Origin: Phorcus lineatus
Lineage: Eukaryota > Mollusca > Gastropoda > Trochida > Trochidae
DNA: 64,000 nucleotides
NCBI GenBank assembly: GCA_921293015.1
Contig: OV121094.1
Span: 38,190,054-38,254,053 of the forward strand
Direction: 5' to 3'
Each line of letters opens with the position of its first letter. The first letter of the stretch is position 1. Below are positions 45,890 to 64,000 of the stretch, one piece after another. The translations under genes and the position numbers were made by a program. The notes under the pieces were generated by a model that ran no database searches, was not told the DNA's origin, and saw only the letters and a list, made by a program, of their open reading frames with translations.

Positions 45890-46690
45890 CAATTGTAGGT
45901 GTGCCTATTTATGAAATGGACAATTTGAGAATCGACTCCTATACCATCTCGGTTTGACATAAAGGCGAGCTCTGAGCCCTTCACAATCACGAATCGATGC
46001 CTATACTCCCTCAGTTTCACATATAGGCGAGCTGTGATCTCTTCACAATCTGGGAATCGATTCCTAGTGTCCCTTAGTTTGATACATAGGCGAGCTGTGA
46101 GCTCTTAATGAAATGAGAATCGATCCAAGTACTCCCAAAGTTTGGCATATAGGCGAGCTGAGAACCCTTCACAATCTACAAATCGATCCCTACTCTCCCA
46201 CAGTTTGACATAAAGGCGAGCTGTGAGCCCTTAACAGTCTGAGAATCGGCCCCTATACTCCATTGGTTTGACATAAAGGCGAGCTGTGAGCCTTCACAAT
46301 CTTGGAATTGACCCCTATACCATCTAAGCTTTACATACTGACGATGAGTGAGCCCTTCACAATCTATGAATCGTTCCCTTTAGTCCCTCAATTTGACATA
46401 AGGCGAGCTATGAACCTGTCACAATATACGACTCGACAACTATTCTCCATCATTTGGATGCACACACAAATAAAACCTAAATAAGCTAGACAATTCTCTT
46501 TGTATAATGCAAAATATGCTACAAACAAGCAAATTCCCAGATTGTGACCATTCCCATATTGTTCAGGTCTCACAATCTGCAGATTGTTTAAACAATCTAA
46601 GAATGAACAAAATTCCTAGATTGTTCGAACAATCTGCAGATAGTGAGCGAACAATCTGCAGATTGTGAACATTCCCAGATTGCACGGAAC
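45890..46690 (+). mobile_element. ~62-bp-unit element, copy 2, one-sided
   Basis: Nine tandem units at 45925-46450, marked by GAATCGA-type blocks at about 45931, 45991, 46053, 46116, 46177, 46240, 46301, 46366 and 46428, carry ACATAAAGGCGAGCTGTGAG and CCCTTCACAATCT in each. The tail (46450-46690) matches the right end of the copy at 6334-7435 and holds several perfect palindromes, AGATTGTTTAAACAATCT, AGATTGTTCGAACAATCT and CAATCTGCAGATTG, ending ATTCCCAGATTGCACGGAAC. The inverted left half present in copy 1 is missing; its place is taken by the TA-flanked MITE. Confidence 0.75.
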
Positions 46691-47288
46691 AGAACCACCC
46701 GAAGACTATACATATACAAGTGGATATTCTAAGTAACTACAGATAGAATATTATATTAATTACCAAATGATATACATTACCCACACATAGGATACACAGG
46801 TTGATATAATTATGATTTATTAAGTTATAAGATCGTTCATTGCATTATCAAACTGCAGTGTAAAATATTTATGTTCAAAGCTCTAGTTTTTCTGTTTACA
46901 GACATTCATGTTTTAAATTTAACTTGTCACTTGCTTGCATTTCAGTGTCAAGTGATCACCAGTTCAGAAATGACATAAACTGATAGAAAGAATCCCTTTC
47001 CGATCTCTCATCACCTGTTGGAATTGATGTGTCATTTCTGATGTCAAAATTCCTCATGATAATCTGACGCTTGATTCACCACAATTGTCAGTTCAATTTG
47101 ATTGCAGTTAAATATCTCCCCAATTCTTACCTTCGTTTACTTAACTGACAGATTGATTTGACTTTTGTGGTAATATTATATTTTCGTAAATGTTTAAGGA
47201 GCGACAAAACAAAACGCAGACAGAAAATTAACGTAGTCGCGCAGTCGTAACTGTACTCCCATCTGTATAACGCATAAAAAATGTAACG
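46691..47288. other. AT-rich stretch, nothing recognised
   Basis: No open frame of note and no repeat edge before the TTAA at 47289-47292 that borders the Kolobok element. Confidence 0.5.
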
Positions 47289-47542
47289 TTAAAGGAGCAG
47301 TCCAGCATATTTTGCGCTTTTTATCTGGACGGTTTTCATCAAAACGACTATCATGTATTTATTCATTTATGATATCAAGGCATATACACGAAATTTGAAA
47401 CAAAACTGTCGATTAGTATTTGAGAAAATGGCCATCAAAAAGCGTCTCCTTAATTATGGAAACGTTTCCATAAATATGGCGGCTAAACCGGAAATGCGTG
47501 ACTCGCGTGTACACGACCTCCAGTTTAAATACGCTTTGCAAC

Positions 47543-50500
47543 ATGGCGGGAAAACGTGGTCGAGGACGCATTTTCAGCCCTGCAACAATCCGATCTAAGA
47601 AAACTCAACGAGCAAAGGATCGCCGGGACAAGAGTGTTTTCATCGGAGACACGCATCAGCGTTGGTCCAGATTGAAGGAGCAACACGGCCCGTTACTCTC
47701 AAACAGCGATTGGGCCGCCCGCTTGCTGGATGCTTACGAGAGCAGTCGCCACCAGAGGTTGGTCGCAGATTCAGCTAGCTATCCAAATTTATTATATTTT
47801 ATCAATACGTTGGCAAAAATAATTCAAATTACTGCTAGGATGATAATGATTTTCCATATGTTATTAGTTAGAAAATATTTTTTAATTCTCTTGAATCTAT
47901 TTATTTATTCATGAAAGATGATATATTTTCATCGCAATATTGGTCACGAGGTTGAAGCCTTGACATGAATTCATAGTTTTATGTTAGCAATGAAGGAGGC
48001 CTCGTAAAATGTTTCATTTCGATATCTTGGTCCAGAATCGTGTAGAATCTAAAGGTCTGCCAACACAACGTTCACTCACTTCCGGGATACATTTCGTCAG
48101 AGTATAAGACTATTTCCGGTTTAACGTTTTTGTTATCATCAAATCCTACTGGACAGTCAAATTCAGTATACGGCATTTACGAAACATCAAGATAAAGTCA
48201 TAAATCTAGTGATTATACATGTACTCTTTATCAAACGTTGCATTTCGTAAAAACTCTTTTAATTTTAGAATTCATCTATCATCGACGCCGATATCGCCTA
48301 TTACGGTTGAATATTGTGAGGATCCCAGTGCAAGGTAGGCAAATGTTGAAGTTAAATGTATGTTGTTGATCTAAATGAATGAACATGATTTTAGAAATGA
48401 CATGCACATAAAAATTAAACAAATAATGAATTTATTCAATTTAAGAAATACACTTTTGTTTTAATGTCCATACTATTATACTCATAAATTAGTGTAATTT
48501 AGAGGGAATGAACAATAAACTATTACTTTGTCCAATCTATAAAATATTATGAAATATTGGAAAATTATTATCAATGTGGTTTCATGGTCACTTTTTATGA
48601 ATTTTGAGAGAGAGAGTTAGAATATACAGTACAAATTATGATTAAAATCTATATGGTCAGTTAACTTTTTCAGAGACCTTTCAACAAGATACCTAGCAGA
48701 AGAACCATTACCCAGGTGGGAATTTTAATTTTATAACAAATTTGATTTAATTGAATTTTTTTTATTTGTGGCATACAGAGACATAAGAAATTGATTTTTT
48801 TTAAAAGTAATTCTAAGAGTGAGATTGAAAATATTTTCACGATACAGAAGTATTGTTGTATTCATTAGGTGCTGTCATCTAACTTTCAATTGTCTTTGTG
48901 CAGGGAACACAACTATAGTCAGAAGCCAGGGGGAAAAGAAAATTTCATGTGAGTAGATGGTAACAATTTTATCAATCATTGAATAGATAAAAGTTAATAT
49001 CCAGAAACCATGTGTCCCCTTTTAAAACTAAAAGTGGCAAGTGGGTTGTGTTGAATTTTTACATAAAAATTCCAACTGAGCAGGCAAATGAATGTGTAAA
49101 TGAATTGTCTAAATGAGGATGCTGAATTGATTGACTTTGTTATCAGCAATACAAACTAGATTAAAAATCCTTAAATGAGTTCATGAATAAAACTGATGTT
49201 TTTTCACATAGTGTTGAAGTTCACGCTGCAGATGTGAGAGATGATCCCCACAGCCAGGAGGATACTGTTGACAGCTATGCATTGTTTGAAGAAGAAATTC
49301 AAGATGAATCTGAAGTAAATCTTTCTTTGATGTGAGTATTTATTTTTATACCCAAACAAATGATGGAATATTCATCTATTTTATGATTTCAAAGAGGGAT
49401 ATTGGCATCGGCTATATACTATAAATAAATAAATAGATTTGTACCAAGTTATTATATATGAAGGTCATCTGCTTGTTTCATTGTACATGTATGATATATT
49501 AAGTGTTATCTTTATCAAGCAGAAAAAAATCATCTTGTTTATCAAAACCTGTCTGTATCATCAAACTTTATGCTTATGTATATCAAATTAATTTGCCATA
49601 TATACATGTATACACCAAATGTTCTATAAGCCTTATACCCAAGTACGGAAATAAAGATTGATTGACGTTATATGATTATAACTTCAAAATAACTCTTTCA
49701 GTGATCCTTTGCTTGATGCCGACAATTTTGAGGATATTACAGCGTGCGAGGAGGTATACGACATTGCTGATTCTAGTGACGACAGTGAAGACAACATGTT
49801 TGATCCCTGCCCAATGGAAACAATGCACCGAGTCACCTGTGCAGATGAGATCCAGACCGACGAACCAACCTTCTTAGTTTACAAGAGCTGCCTCCTTGAT
49901 CTTGCCACCTTGGACGTTCAGAAGATGTGTACGACATGCAACAGCACAGTACAAATTGAATTGAAGAAAGTTGGCACTGGAATATATCTACAATGGGTAG
50001 GTTGCTAAACCATTCACCATTCACCAGCATATCATATTGCTATAATTTTCATGTTCTGAACCATTACTGAACACATTGCCTTGAATACTTAGAGAGTTTG
50101 AAATATTGTCTAGATGGGTAGTGAATCTAGAGATGTTTCAAGAAAATATTTAAACAAAGTAGTTGTCAAGTGTGCAGTTGAATTGAAAATGAATATATAA
50201 TTTGTTTCAGGAATGTGAAAAAGGCCATTTTGCACATCGATGGGCTTCTCAACCTTTGCTTCCTCGTGGCGGAATGGTGGGTAACATCAACCTAGCGGCT
50301 GCTATAGTTTTGTCTGGCAACAACTTTGCTAAGATTGCCCTTCTAGCAAGGTTCCTCAACATGGCATTCCTGAGTAAAAGTTCCTTCTTTAACATCCAGT
50401 CGCACTACATCGTCCCTGGAGTTGATGAATATTGGCTTGACATCAAACGCTCAAGGTTTGAACAGCTCAGAGGCAAAGACGTCATTGTTGCTGGTTAGTA

Positions 50501-53147
50501 TTCATTGTAATGTATTTCTTTTGATAACTAATTTAAAGTGATAGACACAATGAAATATTTATTCCTTTTCTAATAGAATAGTTGTTCAATGGAATAAAAG
50601 CCATATTAAAGTGATATCTGTGTGGTTAAAACAATAGTACATTATGTTTATATTTTATTATGTCATATTTTAATGAATTATTTTAATATTTTTCTTGTTT
50701 CCATGGAAACAATTTCAACTTTGCATATGGGGGAGGGGGGGGGGGGGGGGGGAAGGTTAGCTTTCCAACCTATTCGGGTTATTCTTAATGTTTTTCATTT
50801 TACTTGATTTCCGTGGAAACAATTTAAACTTATTGCATATTGAGGGCTGTAGATGTTAATTATAATAATTGATGACGGTGTGAGCATCAAATGTCACATT
50901 CACATATTTTAGTTTATATTTATTTTATGAAGGATTCAAAATGTTTAAGATCTACAACTCTCTTATAGGTGACGGTCGTATGGACAGCCCAGGATACTGT
51001 GCCAAGTACTGTACGTATTCCATTCTTGACATAGAATCAAGGTGCTTACTGGACATGGTTGTCATTGACAAGAGGGAGACAGACTTGAAGTCCACCTGCA
51101 TGGAAGCCCTGGCCTTTACTCGCATCATCGATGGATTGACTGGTGCTGGTGTTATTGTCAAGGAAGTTGTGACAGATGCTCACTCACAGATCTCAAACAT
51201 TATGAGTATGTTTGCTTAATCATTTTAAGGGCATATTAGGAAACCAAATATGGTTCAAACATATTTACAATATGATCAAATAAAAATGTTCTTATTTTAA
51301 CTGTATTTGAATCTGAATTGACCAAAAATATATAAAAAAAATTTAAACAAATCTGTACCCTAATGAAAGGATTTTTTATTATGATCTTTTTTAGAGAAGA
51401 AATATCCCGGGATTTTACATTCATATGACGTATGGCATGGAGCAAAAAACCTGGCAAGAAAGTTAACAACGGTGAGTTTATCTGTATATTGATCCTACTC
51501 GAGAAACTGAAACCTTGACAATTTTTATTTTTATTTAGGTTCCGGGTAACAGCTTAAACAAAATGTTCTTCGCACAAAGCAGTAAAAAATAATTATTTCT
51601 TGGTTATAATGTAATCAGATCTTTGAGCAGTCAATAGGTATTGTTAATTTAAACATATGATGGTATTATTATCTTTATTATTTCACTGCTTGAGGAAAAA
51701 TACGAATATATTGCATAGCATTTCTCTTAATGGTAACAGGCAGCAGCACCCAAGGATTGTTCCGAACTCAGACCGTGGATAAAGGACATCACAAACCATT
51801 TCTGGTATTGTGCTCGAGAGTGTGAAGGAAGTCATGAAGCTTTCCTGGTAAGTTTACACTTAATGTTAAAGTTATATAATATTTGGTCTGCCAGTGAAAC
51901 TATAATTCCCTGGAATGACATCAAGATGAATGAAATTATTTCCATTTCTATTGTTAAAATTCAAGCAGAAAAAAATCTACATTCCTAATCTTAGTTCAAT
52001 ATGCGATTTTAAATATAATGGTCATTGTTGATTTACAGTCAAGATGGATTGGCGTGATTCACCATGTGGCAGGTTGTCATGACTGGGGCTTGGGCAAGTG
52101 TGAACATGACGACATCAGCGATGAAGAGAAAACCTATCTGTCTCCTAACAGCCCAGCTCACTTAGCACTCCGAGAAGTTGTATATAATCCGTATCTGATG
52201 AGGACCATTCCATACTACATCAGGTTCAGGTAAAATAAACTTGGATACAATGATACTTAATTTCAACAAAAAAAGTTCATGAGCACCCAAGTATATAATG
52301 TGTAGGCATCATATGGGTTTCTAGATTGTATCTCATAATTGAAAATCAGTGTGATCCTTTCCATATTTTGTTATGAATTTTTTAACTTTGAGAAGAAAAG
52401 AAAGATTAATAGTTTTTAAATACATCTTTATTTATTTTATCCTAAAACATCTTTATAAACTAGACAGGAATATAATATAACTTTAATGACTAATATTTTC
52501 AATTTCATAAAAAATATAAACTATGGTGTCAATGTTTTCAATGTGAGTATTTCGTCCTAGGTCAACCTCGGATTTGGAGAGTTTCCAAAACCACATCCTG
52601 ATGTACGCATCAAAGAGGTTTTCATTCAGGTATGTTGATAAATTATCTCTTTCTATTATTGTTTATTATGAATGTCAACACTGATGAGGATGCTGATATA
52701 TCAGGTTTGAATAGGGGGAAACAAACCCAATTCTGTGTTCAAGCCATTGGCTTAAAATGGTAAATAAATGTGAATTTTAAAAATTTACAATCATGTTTCA
52801 GCTACGATGTCTACAAGACCCGGTGCCAGCTGGCAGCCATCGACTATTTGGCTCACATGGACAGACCTGAGAAGAAGACTGCAGATGGACAGAATATCTA
52901 TCACCGGATCTACTCCAAGATCACCAACCACTGGAGGGCACTCACCACCAAAATGGACAAAGGTTATGTATACATTCCAAATCTAATTAACATAATCATT
53001 GGTAAGTATATCTCTGGCCAAATTACCTCTAGGAGCAAAATTGAACCAAGTGTTCAACATCCGTCAAGAATTAGGGCCACAACATCAAAGTGTCCTCCTG
53101 AACCAACCAAGGAAATTGTAAGAAAACTCAAGTCAAGGTTCAAATAA
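47543..53147 (+). CDS. Kolobok transposase, 13 exons, uninterrupted
   Basis: Exons read by eye, all GT-AG: 47543-47757, 48269-48334, 48674-48715, 48904-48948, 49212-49331, 49702-49996, 50211-50493, 50969-51205, 51395-51471, 51740-51847, 52039-52229, 52561-52629, 52802-53147 (TAA). They join in frame to 697 residues. The start at 47543 has A at -3 and G at +4; an upstream in-frame ATG (47498) is possible. Parts: basic leader with IGDTHQRWSRLKEQ (family N-terminal block); acidic middle; zinc-ribbon-like CTTC...CEKGH across exons 6-7; D357 (GDGRMDSPG); D425 (VVTDAH); D446xxH449 (SYDVWHGAKNL); E566 (SDLESFQ...YASKRFSFSY). D357, D425 and E566 are my candidate catalytic triad. No THAP finger is visible at the N terminus, unlike some Kolobok enzymes. 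All domains present, no stop; possibly functional. Confidence 0.87.
50729..50752 (+). repeat. Poly(G) tract in transposase intron 7
   Basis: About 24 bases of G with one A. It sits between two copies of a short block (CCATGGAAACAATTTCAACT at about 50701 and CCGTGGAAACAATTTAAACT at about 50811). The tract could form a quadruplex and is prone to length change. Confidence 0.9.
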
Positions 53148-53193
53148 TGTCATTCAACTTGTCATGTTATAGATACCAAGTAGATCTCTTACA

Positions 53194-54120
53194 AATGTGG
53201 TAATTTGATTAATGTGTGATTTTCAGTAAAGTTTCCTTGATCAACATTGTAATGACTAATCTTTCATGTGATTTGGTGACAAGGCTTTGTTAACATGCAG
53301 TGGGTTAAAGTATCGTAAAATTATTGTCCTGCTGTATTCAAAAACATCTAAGACCGGCCAAAATCTAAACATGATAAAAATTACACAAGTCTCTTTGAAT
53401 TTGGGAAATATTTTATATGAATGTGACAATTTGATTAATATGTGATTTCAGTAAAGTTTCCTTGATCAACATTGTAATGACTAATCTTTCATGTGATTTG
53501 GTGACAAGGCTTTGTTAACATGCAGTGGGTTAAAGTATCGTAAAATTATTGTCCTGCTGTATTCAAAAACATCTAAGACCGGCCAAAATCTAAACATGAT
53601 AAAAATTACACAAGTCTCTTTGAATTTGGGAAATATTTTATATGAATGTGACAATTTGATTAATATGTGATTTCAGTAAAGTTTTCTTGATCAACATTGT
53701 AATGACTAATCTTTCATGTGATTTGGTGACAAGGCTTTGTTAACATGCAGTGGGTTAAAGTATCGTAAAATTATTGTCCTGCTGTATTCAAAAACATCTA
53801 AAACCGGCCAAAATCTAAACATGATAAAAATTACACAAGTCTCTTTGAATTTGGGAAATATTTTATATGAATGTGGTAATTTGATTAATATGTGATTTCA
53901 GTAAAGTTTTCTTGATCAACATTGTAATGACTAATCTTTCATGTGATTTGGTGACAAGGCTTTGTTAACATGCAGTGGGTTAAAGTATCGTAAAATTATT
54001 GTCCTGCTGTATTCAAAAACATCTAAGACCGGCCAAAAATTCCACAAGTCTCTTTGAATTTGGGAATTTTTTTTATATGAATGTAATTATTTGGTTAATA
54101 TGTGATTTCAATAAAATCTT
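53194..54120 (+). repeat. ~225-bp tandem array, four units plus a part
   Basis: Unit starts (AATGTGGTAATTTGATTAAT or AATGTGACAATTTGATTAAT) lie at 53194, 53420, 53645, 53870 and 54080, giving periods of 226, 225, 225 and 210 bp; the last full unit has lost about 20 bp. Units are nearly identical, so the array expanded recently. It starts about 50 bp after the transposase stop codon and probably lies in its 3' untranslated region, since AATAAA is found at 54110-54115. Confidence 0.93.
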
Positions 54121-54823
54121 GAACATGTAATTTTGAAACCCTTTGTGGAACATTTAGAAATACTTTGCCATTGACAGAATCTAACTATTTGCTTTATTTT
54201 TCAGTTATCTATGGATGAAGCTCCTGTTTCCCTCATAGTGTTTTGTAATTGTATTGCTCATGATACTTACAGGTTAATGTTAGTAAGGCATTAAAAACTT
54301 TAGGGACTTAATGACATTGAAAGACCTCTATTGTATTTACCTCCATTGTCGTTACTAATTGTATATGTGTTGTCTCTGTGGCTCTAGATAAGGGGCGCTA
54401 CTTTAATCAGGCTATTCTTTCAAATTCCTGTTAGTATTTTTAATATGAATTTTATAAACATCTGATACCAGCTTGTTAGTATTTTATTATGAATTTTATA
54501 AACATCTGATACCTGCATCTAGAGAAGTTTATGGTTTATGTAAATTTTTGAAATTATTAAATAACATTTTTCTAACATGAATCTCAAATTTCGGTTAATT
54601 TTATGTGATAGCCTTTGACCTAATACAATTTGACATGAAATACAGATGAGCTACAGGGCCAATGGTTCTAGTTATTATCTACACTGGCTTTAAAAGACAC
54701 TGCTTGTATATATATGTGCAATTTGATAGAATATGATAATCCTAGATTTAACTTGATACTTTATTTTATTTTTAGCCTTACAATTCTTTTTGTTATCAAG
54801 TCTGTTTTTATTGTCCTTATATC

Positions 54824-57050
54824 TTAAATGAGACGGTGAGGTTTATAGCCAGTGTAGACATTCCTAGTGTCTGGAAATGTGTGTCTAATCTTAGTGACAC
54901 AACAGCTTGGAATCACCACCCTCCCCTGCCCAAGACTACCCTTTGTCCACCACACATACTGACGGTAGGCTGCATGCCGGTATGACCTGTTGAGGTCATC
55001 TGCAGTGAGGGCGTTGATTCCAAGCATGTCCCTTCTGTGAATCATCTGGACACTGAGAACACTCTTGTCCAGAATAAGTAGTTCCATGTCCTTTGGAATA
55101 AATATTGTCTATTATACAGTTTATTAGCTTTTAATTTGTTAGCATTAATTGGATTAGTCAATAAACTTGTTTACTTTTGAAGCATTTTTTCCTTTTCATT
55201 CCATCGAATAATTTTTAAAAATTTATTGATCTGAAATTCATTCTACAAGTATTGTTTGATTAAAAAATATTTTTTCTACAACAAAATTGAATTTTGTTTT
55301 TCTTAATGCTGGTTTTGAGCTATTATAAAGCTGTACCTACTGGTAAAGTACTTGTGCATGGTGAACAATTGCAGCAGACTTGTTCTATTAAAGATGACAT
55401 GTCCCCACAATTGCCACACATGCACCATGGTGGTCCTGAACTTGTGTCCTGTTGGGTGGGGGGTCTTGCGCTTCATCCCCTGATGTGTTCCTGCTAATGA
55501 GGTCATGTAGTACACATGGATATGCATCCACGACCCTCATTAGCAGGCCCTGGGCATCCTCCAAGGGTAATTGGGAAACGCAATTCTGTAAATAGGGTGA
55601 CATTATTTCTGTTGATTTTTTTAGATCCCCAGTTTTTCCTTAATTGGTTACATATTAAGTTGTTTTTATATGAGTGAAGCGACTAAAAAATATTGATGTT
55701 GTTTTTTTCAGTTATTATTTTGCTGTTCCTCTCCGTTATAACATGAATATATCACACCGATGTTGGAAATCATCAATTAAATAAAACAAAAACTCAATGC
55801 TTTCAATTTATATTTGTGTTTATTCTCAGGAAGTTACATGCTGATGTACATATGATTAATTCTTTTTAAATTACCTTTAGTTGGTCCTCTCTCTGTTGCC
55901 TAAGCCCCCTCAACCTCTCCACAGCTTCAGCCTCCAGGAGAGGAACAGCAAAATGCCGACCCCGGCCCCCTCTGCTTCCTCTTCCTCGGCCTCTACCCCT
56001 TCCTCGGCCCCGCCCTCTGCCTCTTCTCACTTCTGTATCTACAATCTCCTTTAATCAAACAGTAAAAAAAAGGATTAATTATTTATCAATTTATGATCTT
56101 ATTTTCAGGAGTTATTATTTACTTTAAATAAATAATCACTGCTTTCAGTTTATGCGAGCAAATTAGGGACAGAAGTATGTTTTCATTTTCAAGCTGGCCA
56201 TGCCATTTTTGATAAGTAATTCACACTTGAGGGGGAGTTAAATCGTAAAGTTAAAAGTATTTCAGTGTTGCGGTGATTTCGTAGACACGAAAACCGGTAC
56301 TCGTAGACAAACCGAGCAGTGAATTCGTAGACAGGTTTTAATATAGGATTAGACGTAATAATAGCAAACTTTTATTTATCAAACTCAAGGTGCAAACACT
56401 AATAGGTTCGATTAAAGAAATAAAAAATATAGTCAGTTTTGTTGTGTTTGGAAAGTATTGAAGTAATCCAATATTATATTATATAACAACTAAGCCTACA
56501 CAATCAACACCAGCATAGAGACGAGAAAACATCCGGGAAGACAATAAAAGTCACTGACAATAAAAACAAATAGCGCGGCTAATCCGCCGATGACACTATT
56601 GTAGCACATCATGTTTTTACAAATTGTTTACAAATATAGCCTAGATATTAAGTCAAACAAATCTAATTTTAATCCACTTGCATGTAAAGCTTATAACATT
56701 ATACGTAAAGCGCACATTCTCAAAATCAATATCCATGCAGCAAGATATGAACTACTATAGAAGATAATGATACTTACAAAAATAGTCAATAGTGACTTGT
56801 AATAAATTTTATACTGTCTACGAAATGGTTTTGTCTACGAAATCACTGCAAGCCATTATTCGGCCTATTCGGCGAACGTGAAGCACTAAACTGCGATAAT
56901 TAAATATTACGATGAACATGATTTAGAATCGAACATCTTACTGTTTATCAATTGTTGGACTATTTGCTATTCATACATGATGAAACAAATCTGTTACTTA
57001 TTACTTACCATTTCAATTTCTCCAGTCAAATTACCCGCCATAGCCGCCAT
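54824..57050 (-). CDS. P2X7-ballast-like protein, antisense second gene of the Kolobok element
   Basis: Exons on the minus strand: 57050-57009 ([14 protein letters not shown]), 56048-55875, 55585-55341, 55090-54824 (TAA), with GT-AG introns in phase 0. Exon 2 encodes an RG-rich run (about residues 22-46) then a charged helix with [17 protein letters not shown]. Exon 3 carries [18 protein letters not shown] and [11 protein letters not shown] followed by VCCNCSPC. Exon 4 carries [19 protein letters not shown] and [21 protein letters not shown]. This order matches the cytoplasmic ballast domain of vertebrate P2X7, which binds zinc and GDP; there are no channel segments. Exon 3 is 245 nt and needs one more base to stay in frame; the slip falls at a six-C run near 55465. 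Expected length is about 242 aa. Function within the element is unknown. Confidence 0.82.
56268..56851. mobile_element. 584-bp MITE inside the antisense gene's intron 1
   Basis: The ends are TTGCGGTGATTTCGTAGACA (56268-56287) and TGTCTACGAAATCACTGCAA (56832-56851), a 20-bp inverted repeat with one difference. TTCGTAGACA or CGTAGACA recurs three more times near the left end and once more near the right. No clear target duplication was found. There is no coding capacity. It lies between exon 1 (57009) and exon 2 (56048) of the ballast-like gene, so it interrupts no exon. Confidence 0.8.
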
Positions 57051-57296
57051 ATTTGTTGGTAGAAGTCTGACAGCAGGTAGTGTTAAACGCGAGTAACGGA
57101 AGTCGTGTGACGTCATGTTCTAGAATTATTAGTTTGCGGACCACAAAACGTCAAGAAAAAAACGTTTTTCAAAAATAAGTTAAAATTTCGTATTTTCGGT
57201 TCTTTTGACTTGCAACCATTTGGTAAGCTATATTTTAAAGGATTTCAAACAGTCACTAGTGAAAAATGTCAAAAATTTGCCGCACTGCTCCTTTAA

Positions 57297-58249
57297 AGGT
57301 TCACTTTTTGTGTTAAAACGTATAAGCACCGGATTTGAAAAAAAAAAATGTTACGGTTTATAAGTCAATGATGTAAAGCATTAATAAAGCTAGTCCTCAA
57401 TATATAAAAAAGATAGGTTTTATTAATTTTTATTTTATATGTCTTGGTTAAAAATTAAACCAAACAGTCTTTTAACACGTTAACATTTTTCAACAACATT
57501 ACTAACAAAATGTATAACAATGACACTTTCTAATTTAAGTAAAACTAGTGAAAATAGGTGGTTGTAGTTTGCTTACAAGTGTGAACATCAATCAGGGTAG
57601 TGACTTATGACATATATTATTAAAGACACATTTTAATCTTTGAAATTTATTTATTTTCTTCAACGGTCAAAGGCGCATACAAGATGATTGATTTGACCAT
57701 AATCAACACGAAATAAATCCATTTCTGATCTATTCTTCAGGACTATGTGGACACTCCTTGTCCAATGTTGTCTCAAATGTTTCTACAACTGTATTACGTT
57801 GTTTTTGTCCAGGCTATCTGTTTAGGCTATCTATTAAAGATTATATATAGTTGGTCATTTGAGAGTCATACCATAAACGGTTTGATAATGAAATAATCCC
57901 TTTGTCAAGACGGGAACTGTAGAATAGTTTAGGGTAAATGCATGCCACTCCCATATTTGAAGGGAGGTCAGCCCGGAAATTACAGATTAGGATTCCCTAC
58001 TTGCAAGATACATCCCCCAAAATGTCAGCTTTTGGGATTCAGAAAATGAATATCTAAAAAAACGTATGGTGTCATACAGTGTAACGGTTTAACACCTGTC
58101 AAATGAGATTACTCATGTATGAGTATGTATAAAAGGTTTCTGAATAACGGTTTGATATAGATCACATCAAGCAGGTAGCAAGTGACAACCTAAGCACAGC
58201 GTTATTCCATCACTCAGTCACAGGAGCGATTCATAACGTTTCAGCTTTA
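57297..58249. other. AT-rich stretch, nothing recognised
   Basis: Sequence just right of the Kolobok TTAA border; no open frame or repeat could be assigned. Confidence 0.45.
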
Positions 58250-62561: not shown

Positions 62562-64000
62562 TTTTTATTTTTATTTTTTTTTTTATTTTTTTTTATTTTC
62601 CATATTTGTGTTACAGGCAAAAATAAGTAATATGTTTAATCAAACAATCGTCACATAAATAAAGATACAAGAAAATCCACAGTTGGTTATGACATTTTTT
62701 AAACAAGAAATCTAAATAACATTACTTTCCAAGTAATAAGTGTAAACTTGACCAATATTGAAAAAACTTTGCTTCAGTTTCGGTTGACAGAAAAATATAT
62801 CTAGATAGGTCATAATAACGTACAATTTCATCTTGGAGATGCTCTAACTTTGGTTTGTAACCATAAATGCTACATCTATGAATATACTTTTTGACTAATA
62901 AAATGATTGCATTTACAGGATTATTGTTCTTTCCGTTCATTCCCAGTATAACAATTTTATTAGTAAATTCTAATTTCAGTTGGACAGAGTTTAACCATAA
63001 TTCTATTTCCTTCCATAATCTGAGGATAGTTTCACATTCCCAAAGCATATGGTTTAAGGTTTCTATTTCACTTTTGCAAAACGCACAAAGTGGTGATGAT
63101 ATATATCCTATTTTATAAAGAAATTGTCTTGTTGGGAGAATATTATGAATAATTCTATATTGCAACCATTTTAAGTCTGTGCTTTTCGAACATTTATTAG
63201 CAATAATGTTGAAAACTTTCCAATCTTTTTCATCAAAATCACTTTGTAAAACTTTTTCCCATTTTGAAAAGCTTGCCAGCCGAACAAAATTCGAGTTAAT
63301 AAGAGCCGCATATAATTTTTTACTCCCAATTATGGTATCAATTTTGGATACATTATACGGATATATAGGATTTTGTAGCTTTTTCTTATATTTCTTTATG
63401 TTCAGTGAACGGGCATATGTCATAATGGCTCTTTTCACCGATTCGTAAGTCAAAAAGTTAGTCTTGATACAAAAAGATTTGGAAAATTCTTCATAAGTTA
63501 ACAGTCTTCCCTCGTCATGGATCAAATCATTTACAAAAATAACACCTTTCTTATACCATTCATAATACAAAAACGGATGTTTATCAATCATAATATTGTC
63601 GTTGTTCCATAATGATTGACTTTGTATATCTTCTTCATTTACAATTTTCCTTTTATTCATGGATAAAAAGTTTGACCATTCTGAAAGAATGTCTTTCCAA
63701 AAAGAATTTGTTAAATGAGGAATTATTTTATTTTTTATGAAGATACCATCCGAAAGTAGAAAAGGGGTCTTCTCTTCAAGTTGATTGTAAAATAAATATG
63801 TCCATTTTAGGTCTTTATCGCTTATTCTTTTAATCCATTTTAATTTTTGTGATGATATGATTTTCCAAATATTTGGAGATTTTATTCCCCCATGTTCTGG
63901 GTTTAACATCATTACATCTCTTTTAATCTTATCTGGTTTGTTTTTCCATATGAAATTAAAACACTTTTTTTGGAGTTTTTCAATGACGCCTTTTTTGGGA
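62562..64000 (-). mobile_element. L1/Tx1-type LINE, 3' part, runs off the window
   Basis: The minus-strand frame ends at 62722 and stays open to the window edge (at least 422 codons; the Met at 63912 is internal, not a start). The part seen is the region after the polymerase core: KCFNFIWKNKPDKIKRDV then EHGGIKSPN (a block conserved after the LINE thumb), and near the C terminus LKWLQYRIIHNILPTRQFLY followed by a zf-RVT-like finger, CAFC...HMLWEC. About 120 bp of 3' untranslated sequence follows, then an A-rich AAATA-type tail (62562-62599 on the minus strand). The endonuclease and YxDD core would lie beyond 64000. No interruption is seen, so the copy may be young. Confidence 0.87.

Follow-up and report, generated by a model that had tools for sequence, protein, structure and literature searches.

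A Kolobok transposon of Phorcus lineatus with a convergent gene for a P2X7-type ballast protein

Two convergent genes between TTAA-flanked ends

The 64,000-nucleotide stretch of Phorcus lineatus DNA analysed here (referred to as the window) contains a Kolobok DNA transposon of exactly 10,000 bp (window 47293-57292), which is flanked by TTAA duplications and carries two genes. One encodes a Kolobok transposase on the + strand, and the other, on the - strand, encodes KolX, a protein with the C-terminal ballast domain of the P2X7 receptor. The two are in convergent order, with start codons approximately 250 bp inside the left end (transposase) and the right end (KolX) of the element. The ends were located with a pattern consisting of TTAA plus 14 bases, chosen by eye from the right end and allowing up to 3 mismatches. 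This pattern occurred twice in the window, in opposite orientations (47289-47306 and 57279-57296), and in none of 100 shuffles. The left and right TTAA target-site duplications (47289-47292 and 57293-57296), identified by the pattern search and by comparison of copies, enclose terminal inverted repeats at 47293-47306 (+) and 57279-57292 (-). The first begins with AG and the second ends with CT on the + strand, with 12 of 14 bases in common, which agrees with the 5'-RR...YY-3' rule for Kolobok termini.

The transposase gene (47543-53147, +) was modelled as 13 exons with GT donors and AG acceptors that together encode an open protein of 697 amino acids. The exons lie at 47543-47757, 48269-48334, 48674-48715, 48904-48948, 49212-49331, 49702-49996, 50211-50493, 50969-51205, 51395-51471, 51740-51847, 52039-52229, 52561-52629 and 52802-53147. 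The protein matched the Pfam Mutator family PF20700 (E = 6.7e-9) and contains the DDD/E and C/DxxH motifs, which were assigned by eye as DGR, TDAH, DVWH and TSDLESF. For the zinc finger between DxxH and E, with its conserved third C, a C-x-H in the window protein corresponds by pattern to the invariant C541 and near-invariant H543 of an alignment that did not include the window transposase as a row. Cysteines also follow DGR, where loss of the second CCHC finger is expected in Kol0, and a finger there is neither clearly present nor clearly absent. The piggyBac superfamily, which also uses TTAA, was ruled out by the Mutator-family match of the transposase and the Kolobok RR...YY ends.

The KolX gene consists of four minus-strand exons that lie wholly between the TTAA-flanked ends, as an earlier interpretation made from the letters of the window (the sequence-only reading) had proposed. 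Exon 1 (57050-57009) has two in-frame ATGs, of which the second is at 57041, and exon 2 (56048-55875) encodes an RG-rich leader. Exon 3 (55585-55341) encodes the WCxCxxC and CC cluster, and exon 4 (55090-54824) the C-terminal ballast. The exons are bounded by GT donors and AG acceptors. Exon 4 alone matched Pfam P2RX7_C (PF20478) with 60 bits (3e-16), and the exon-joined protein, with X at a break in the frame, scored 97 bits (cut-off, 23.5), as is expected of a ballast-bearing KolX of Kol0. Over the ballast, the joined protein matched human P2X7 at 2.4e-16 and rat P2X7 at 4e-16. The cysteines of WCxCxxC, CC, C and PSCC are common to KolX and vertebrate P2X7, as are the RH...Y positions. Among the P2X7 guanosine-contact residues given by Rump et al. 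2020 (PMC7016195), KolX keeps the positions of R546, H547 and R578. Pfam detected the ballast only and no P2X channel domain in KolX. Thus, unlike vertebrate P2X7, KolX has no channel part and carries an RG-rich leader instead, which agrees with the description given in the sequence-only reading.

Exon 3 of the window copy does not keep a single frame: its 5' part is read in a different frame from the cysteine cluster, which indicates a frameshift or may reflect an assembly error in this exon. In two long sibling copies of the element, which lie on other contigs (C37 and C2), exon 1 is identical, and the other three exons are open in consistent frames. Because both siblings are open through these exons, the exon model is right and the window copy is broken or misassembled at this point. 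The proposal that four exons encode the cysteine cluster and the ballast was therefore borne out by the PF20478 match and by the sibling copies, but not by exon 3 of the window copy, in which the frame is broken.

Pairing and copies in the genome

The genome of the window (957.8 Mb, 74 contigs) was searched with the window transposase, which gave 68 matches (best 64 of 363 candidates scored) that merged into 40 loci, three of them in the window element and the C37 and C2 siblings. A search with PF20478 gave 150 scored matches, the best of 228 candidates, and 142 loci after merging. A ballast match was found within 10 kb of 31 of the 40 transposase loci, and in all 31 cases it lay on the opposite strand in convergent order; uniform random placement would give a ballast match within this distance at approximately 0.3% of loci. 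For a comparison set of 54 merged loci matching PF20700, in which the window transposase is not contained, which shares a few loci with the 40 and for which start positions only were used, one ballast match was observed within 10 kb, at 8.3 kb.

Twelve ballast loci beyond the family of the window element were also read by sequence. In families i and ii, opposite-strand transposase matches were present at 9 of 10 loci read, one of the nine being a single weak match (2e-6), and families iii and iv, with one locus each, showed the same convergent order. Thus, each of the five ballast families read, including that of the window, has an opposite-strand, convergent Kolobok transposase. TTAA-bounded ends were found in all eight within-family comparisons of families i and ii. 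These results support a general pairing of KolX with the transposase within this genome. The sequence-only reading had anticipated a pairing within 10 kb and on opposite strands, and the lack of association elsewhere, which it had named as the outcome that would speak against it, is not what this genome shows.

Searches with the left and right ends (best 40 of 130 and best 40 of 141 candidates scored) revealed facing listed ends, no more than 14 kb apart, of at least 25 elements of 2.2 to 10.0 kb. When compared by eye, 4 of the 25 contained a ballast match among those scored, and the other 21 could be relatives or derivatives that arose by deletion. Three long copies are near-identical, with lengths of 10,000 bp (window), 9,994 bp (C37) and 9,746 bp (C2) and identities of 99.2-99.9% in the main aligned blocks. 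A fourth copy of 3,557 bp (C29) is internally deleted. The 4-bp TTAA duplication that is expected of the Kolobok superfamily stands directly at both ends in all four, and the 400-bp flanks of the three long copies showed no similarity to one another. The transposase is open in all three long copies. Exon 2 of the window transposase differs from that of each sibling at 18 ungapped positions, which suggests small indels there.

Family ii contributed 73 ballast matches of identical score, 120.6 bits (best 150 of 228 scored), and copies sampled from it (six loci read, L026-L037) were approximately 99.9% identical in aligned blocks. To judge from its sequences, family ii is a very recent burst.

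Several further features were identified within the element. The 13-mer AAATATGGCGGCT has two exact matches in the window and none elsewhere in it, one near the transposase start codon (47472-47484, +) and the other (57042-57054, -) near that of KolX, where it contains the first ATG. It resembles a YY1 site. This motif was absent within 600 bp of the ends in families i and ii, and family ii carries ATGGCGGC near its right end. A minisatellite with a 225-bp unit and 3.8 copies (53194-54038) lies between the stop codons of the two convergent genes. The C2 sibling is shorter by 254 bp overall, with a gap in the minisatellite region that is consistent with approximately one unit fewer. KolX intron 1 contains a nested inverted-repeat insert of 584 bp (56268-56851; 20-bp arms, 95%). 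The long siblings align across this insert; neither the C41 copy nor the C29 copy, which is internally deleted, aligns over the stretch. An Rfam scan of 47000-57600 found no family at the gathering score. Outside the element, the window holds a 63-bp tandem array of approximately 8 copies (45920-46425) and an open frame of 425 amino acids (62725-63999, -) that runs off the window, matches zf-RVT (9.8e-8) and is probably a retrotransposon fragment.

Selection on KolX and its relatives

Between families i and ii, the ballast showed a synonymous difference (pS) of 0.845, which is saturated, and a nonsynonymous difference (pN) of 0.144. Similarly, exon 4 of families iii and iv showed a pS of 0.844 and a pN of 0.228. 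Because the nonsynonymous difference is far below the synonymous one, KolX is maintained as a protein, and these comparisons show purifying selection on it between families.

The search for KolX relatives found 761 proteins, and motifs were counted in 120 listed ones: WCxCxxC was present in 116, RHxAYR in 93 and [VILF]PSC in 114. At least four RG/GR steps were found in 19 of the 58 listed relatives that have at least 60 residues before the cluster, which indicates that RG-rich leaders are recurrent among KolX relatives, though not universal. A structural model was prepared for one relative, Mytilus P0131 (28 sequences; mean pLDDT, 85), and in a comparison with PDB the predicted fold gave 14 matches at E <= 0.001, all of them to P2X7 chains. 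No significant fold match was found among viral proteins, and no KolX relatives were found in viral contigs, where 56 pattern matches gave 0 confirmed cases. For the transposase, 77 related proteins were found at E <= 0.001. Many rows were unnamed, and the named sources included bivalves, gastropods, amphioxus, acorn worms, echinoderms, fish, turtle, coral and a priapulid.

An unrooted tree was built from 38 ballast domains, comprising 31 picked named proteins of the 120 listed, five from this genome and two from P2X7. The five families of this genome were scattered over the tree. The window KolX grouped with a Solemya protein (91/94), and families i and ii grouped with a soft coral protein (99/98). 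Horizontal transfer could account for the grouping of the family ii KolX with family i and the soft coral protein.

One P2X channel locus was detected in the genome, with six exon matches on C15 at 33.22-33.25 Mb (92 of 92 candidates scored). The nearest scored ballast match on C15 is approximately 3.2 Mb away (best 150 of 228 scored). The ballast thus occurred, as far as it was detected in this animal, as a unit separate from the channel.

The role of KolX and its relation to P2X7

Kojima and Bao (2022; PMC9587614), in the part of the text that was available, reported that KolX of Kol0 has the fold of the cytoplasmic ballast, that fusion of a P2X4-like gene with KolX gave rise to P2X7, and that domestication of KolX is the likely origin of Nanor. 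The central idea, that KolX is a ballast protein and the source of the P2X7 tail and of Nanor, has therefore been in print since 2022. Among the papers listed in literature searches, none besides these was judged to deal with this link; one other, PMC9319628, contains both Kolobok and P2X7. The sequence-only reading arrived at the published idea about the P2X7 tail from the letters alone. New here are the documented family, its consistently convergent order and the recurrent RG-rich leader.

The window element resembles Kol0 and Kolobok-1_XT, as described in that part of PMC9587614, in its TTAA duplications, its RR...YY ends and its combination of a Kolobok transposase with a second, ballast-bearing protein. 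It differs from Kolobok-1_XT in that it lies in another genome and comes with an exon map, a nested inverted-repeat insert and a minisatellite. The strand of KolX in Kol0 is not stated in the available part of PMC9587614; here, it is opposite to the transposase. KolobokP of the same source likewise pairs a transposase with a small accessory protein that is encoded downstream on the opposite strand, but its long terminal direct repeats and His-Me nuclease have no counterpart here: a left-end query matched the window element only at its left end, and Pfam found only the ballast in KolX, which rules out KolobokP. In the accessible part of a paper on Xenopus Kolobok elements (PMC6004289), a search for the terms P2X, accessory and antisense gave no result. 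Rump et al. 2020 (PMC7016195) described ballast proteins that stand alone in a range of animals, oyster and limpet among them. These ZCD proteins and Nanor are similar to KolX in being short, with a C-terminal zinc-coordinating ballast and no channel; in the part of that source available, the stand-alone proteins are treated as genes with ancestral synteny and not as transposon proteins.

We consider it likely, with a probability of approximately 0.8, that the window element is a full-length Kolobok transposon of the Kol0 type that was recently mobile and in which KolX is an accessory protein or regulator of transposition. According to this proposal, the transposase would cut and paste the element at TTAA, and KolX would be a zinc-bound accessory protein expressed from a separate promoter of its own, at the other end. 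The RG-rich leader of KolX might contact either DNA or RNA, and the ballast part, in which some of the residues that bind guanosine nucleotides in P2X7 are retained, would assist or regulate the complex of transposase and DNA. A guanosine-nucleotide role for KolX is a guess by analogy with P2X7. The vertebrate P2X7 tail and Nanor would be captured KolX domains, as proposed in PMC9587614. The combination of an RG-rich leader and a zinc core suggests an accessory protein that touches nucleic acid, and a functional pair of KolX and transposase is favoured because the order is constant and KolX is under selection.

Several observations weigh against this interpretation. The Kol0 assignment is based on the KolX ballast and not on a transposase tree, and the accessory or regulatory role of KolX is itself deduced. 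KolX is broken in the window copy, and it does not keep two positions of the P2X7 guanosine site, those of R574 and K583. Nine of the 40 transposase loci had no scored ballast match within 10 kb; these are mostly of low identity (22 to 41%), together with one cut-down copy of the window element's family on C19. A scored transposase match lay within 10 kb of only 31 of the 142 ballast loci, the transposase search scoring the best 64 of 363 candidates and many ballast matches being short or interrupted by stops. The PF20700 comparison set samples other, less intron-split lineages, and the ACGG at the start of family ii departs from the RR...YY rule. The convergent order could result from co-inheritance alone. 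Finally, the tree that includes vertebrate P2X7, as the sequence-only reading had suggested, neither supports nor contradicts descent of the receptor tail from a captured domain: the two P2X7 tails are on a branch of length 1.92 in an unrooted tree, and P2X7 was not placed. The idea of descent itself is that already published in PMC9587614.

Other roles for KolX were also weighed. It is possible, though rather doubtful, that KolX is not a transposition factor but a passenger with effects on the host, such as counteracting silencing, and that it is retained because it helps the element persist. Selection on KolX fits any useful role, and neither the RG-rich leader nor the zinc cluster is specific to a transposase, but KolX was convergent with one transposase lineage in 31 of 31 cases, a constancy that suggests coupling, although co-inheritance could also produce it. 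A more specific form of the accessory reading, which we regard as unlikely, is that KolX is the obligate convergent partner of one Kolobok lineage, selected across families as a zinc- and guanosine-nucleotide-responsive cofactor of the complex of transposase and DNA. It is quite improbable that KolX is a self-limiting regulator that would lower transposition as copies accumulate; the position of KolX, as a gene of its own that begins at the end opposite to the transposase start, would suit such a regulator by inference alone, but one family has 73 matches of identical score, so any limit would be weak. The one-off capture of a host ballast gene by a single transposon copy, which could draw on the presence of the domain in predicted stand-alone proteins and in vertebrate P2X7, is rejected as extremely unlikely, since several diverged families of this genome share the pairing (31 of 40 loci, all 31 of them convergent) and the family is in print (PMC9587614).

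The constant convergent order of KolX and the transposase thus suggests a functional pair. Because young copies in this genome keep both genes open, the function of KolX and of the ballast fold can be tested here directly. Many database entries from invertebrates and fish that are named 'P2X purinoceptor 7-like' are probably transposon proteins, and, if so, they would mislead counts of receptors. If KolX is indeed a cofactor of the transposase complex, the ballast of P2X7 would be a repurposed transposon regulator, and the biochemistry of KolX would explain the ballast.
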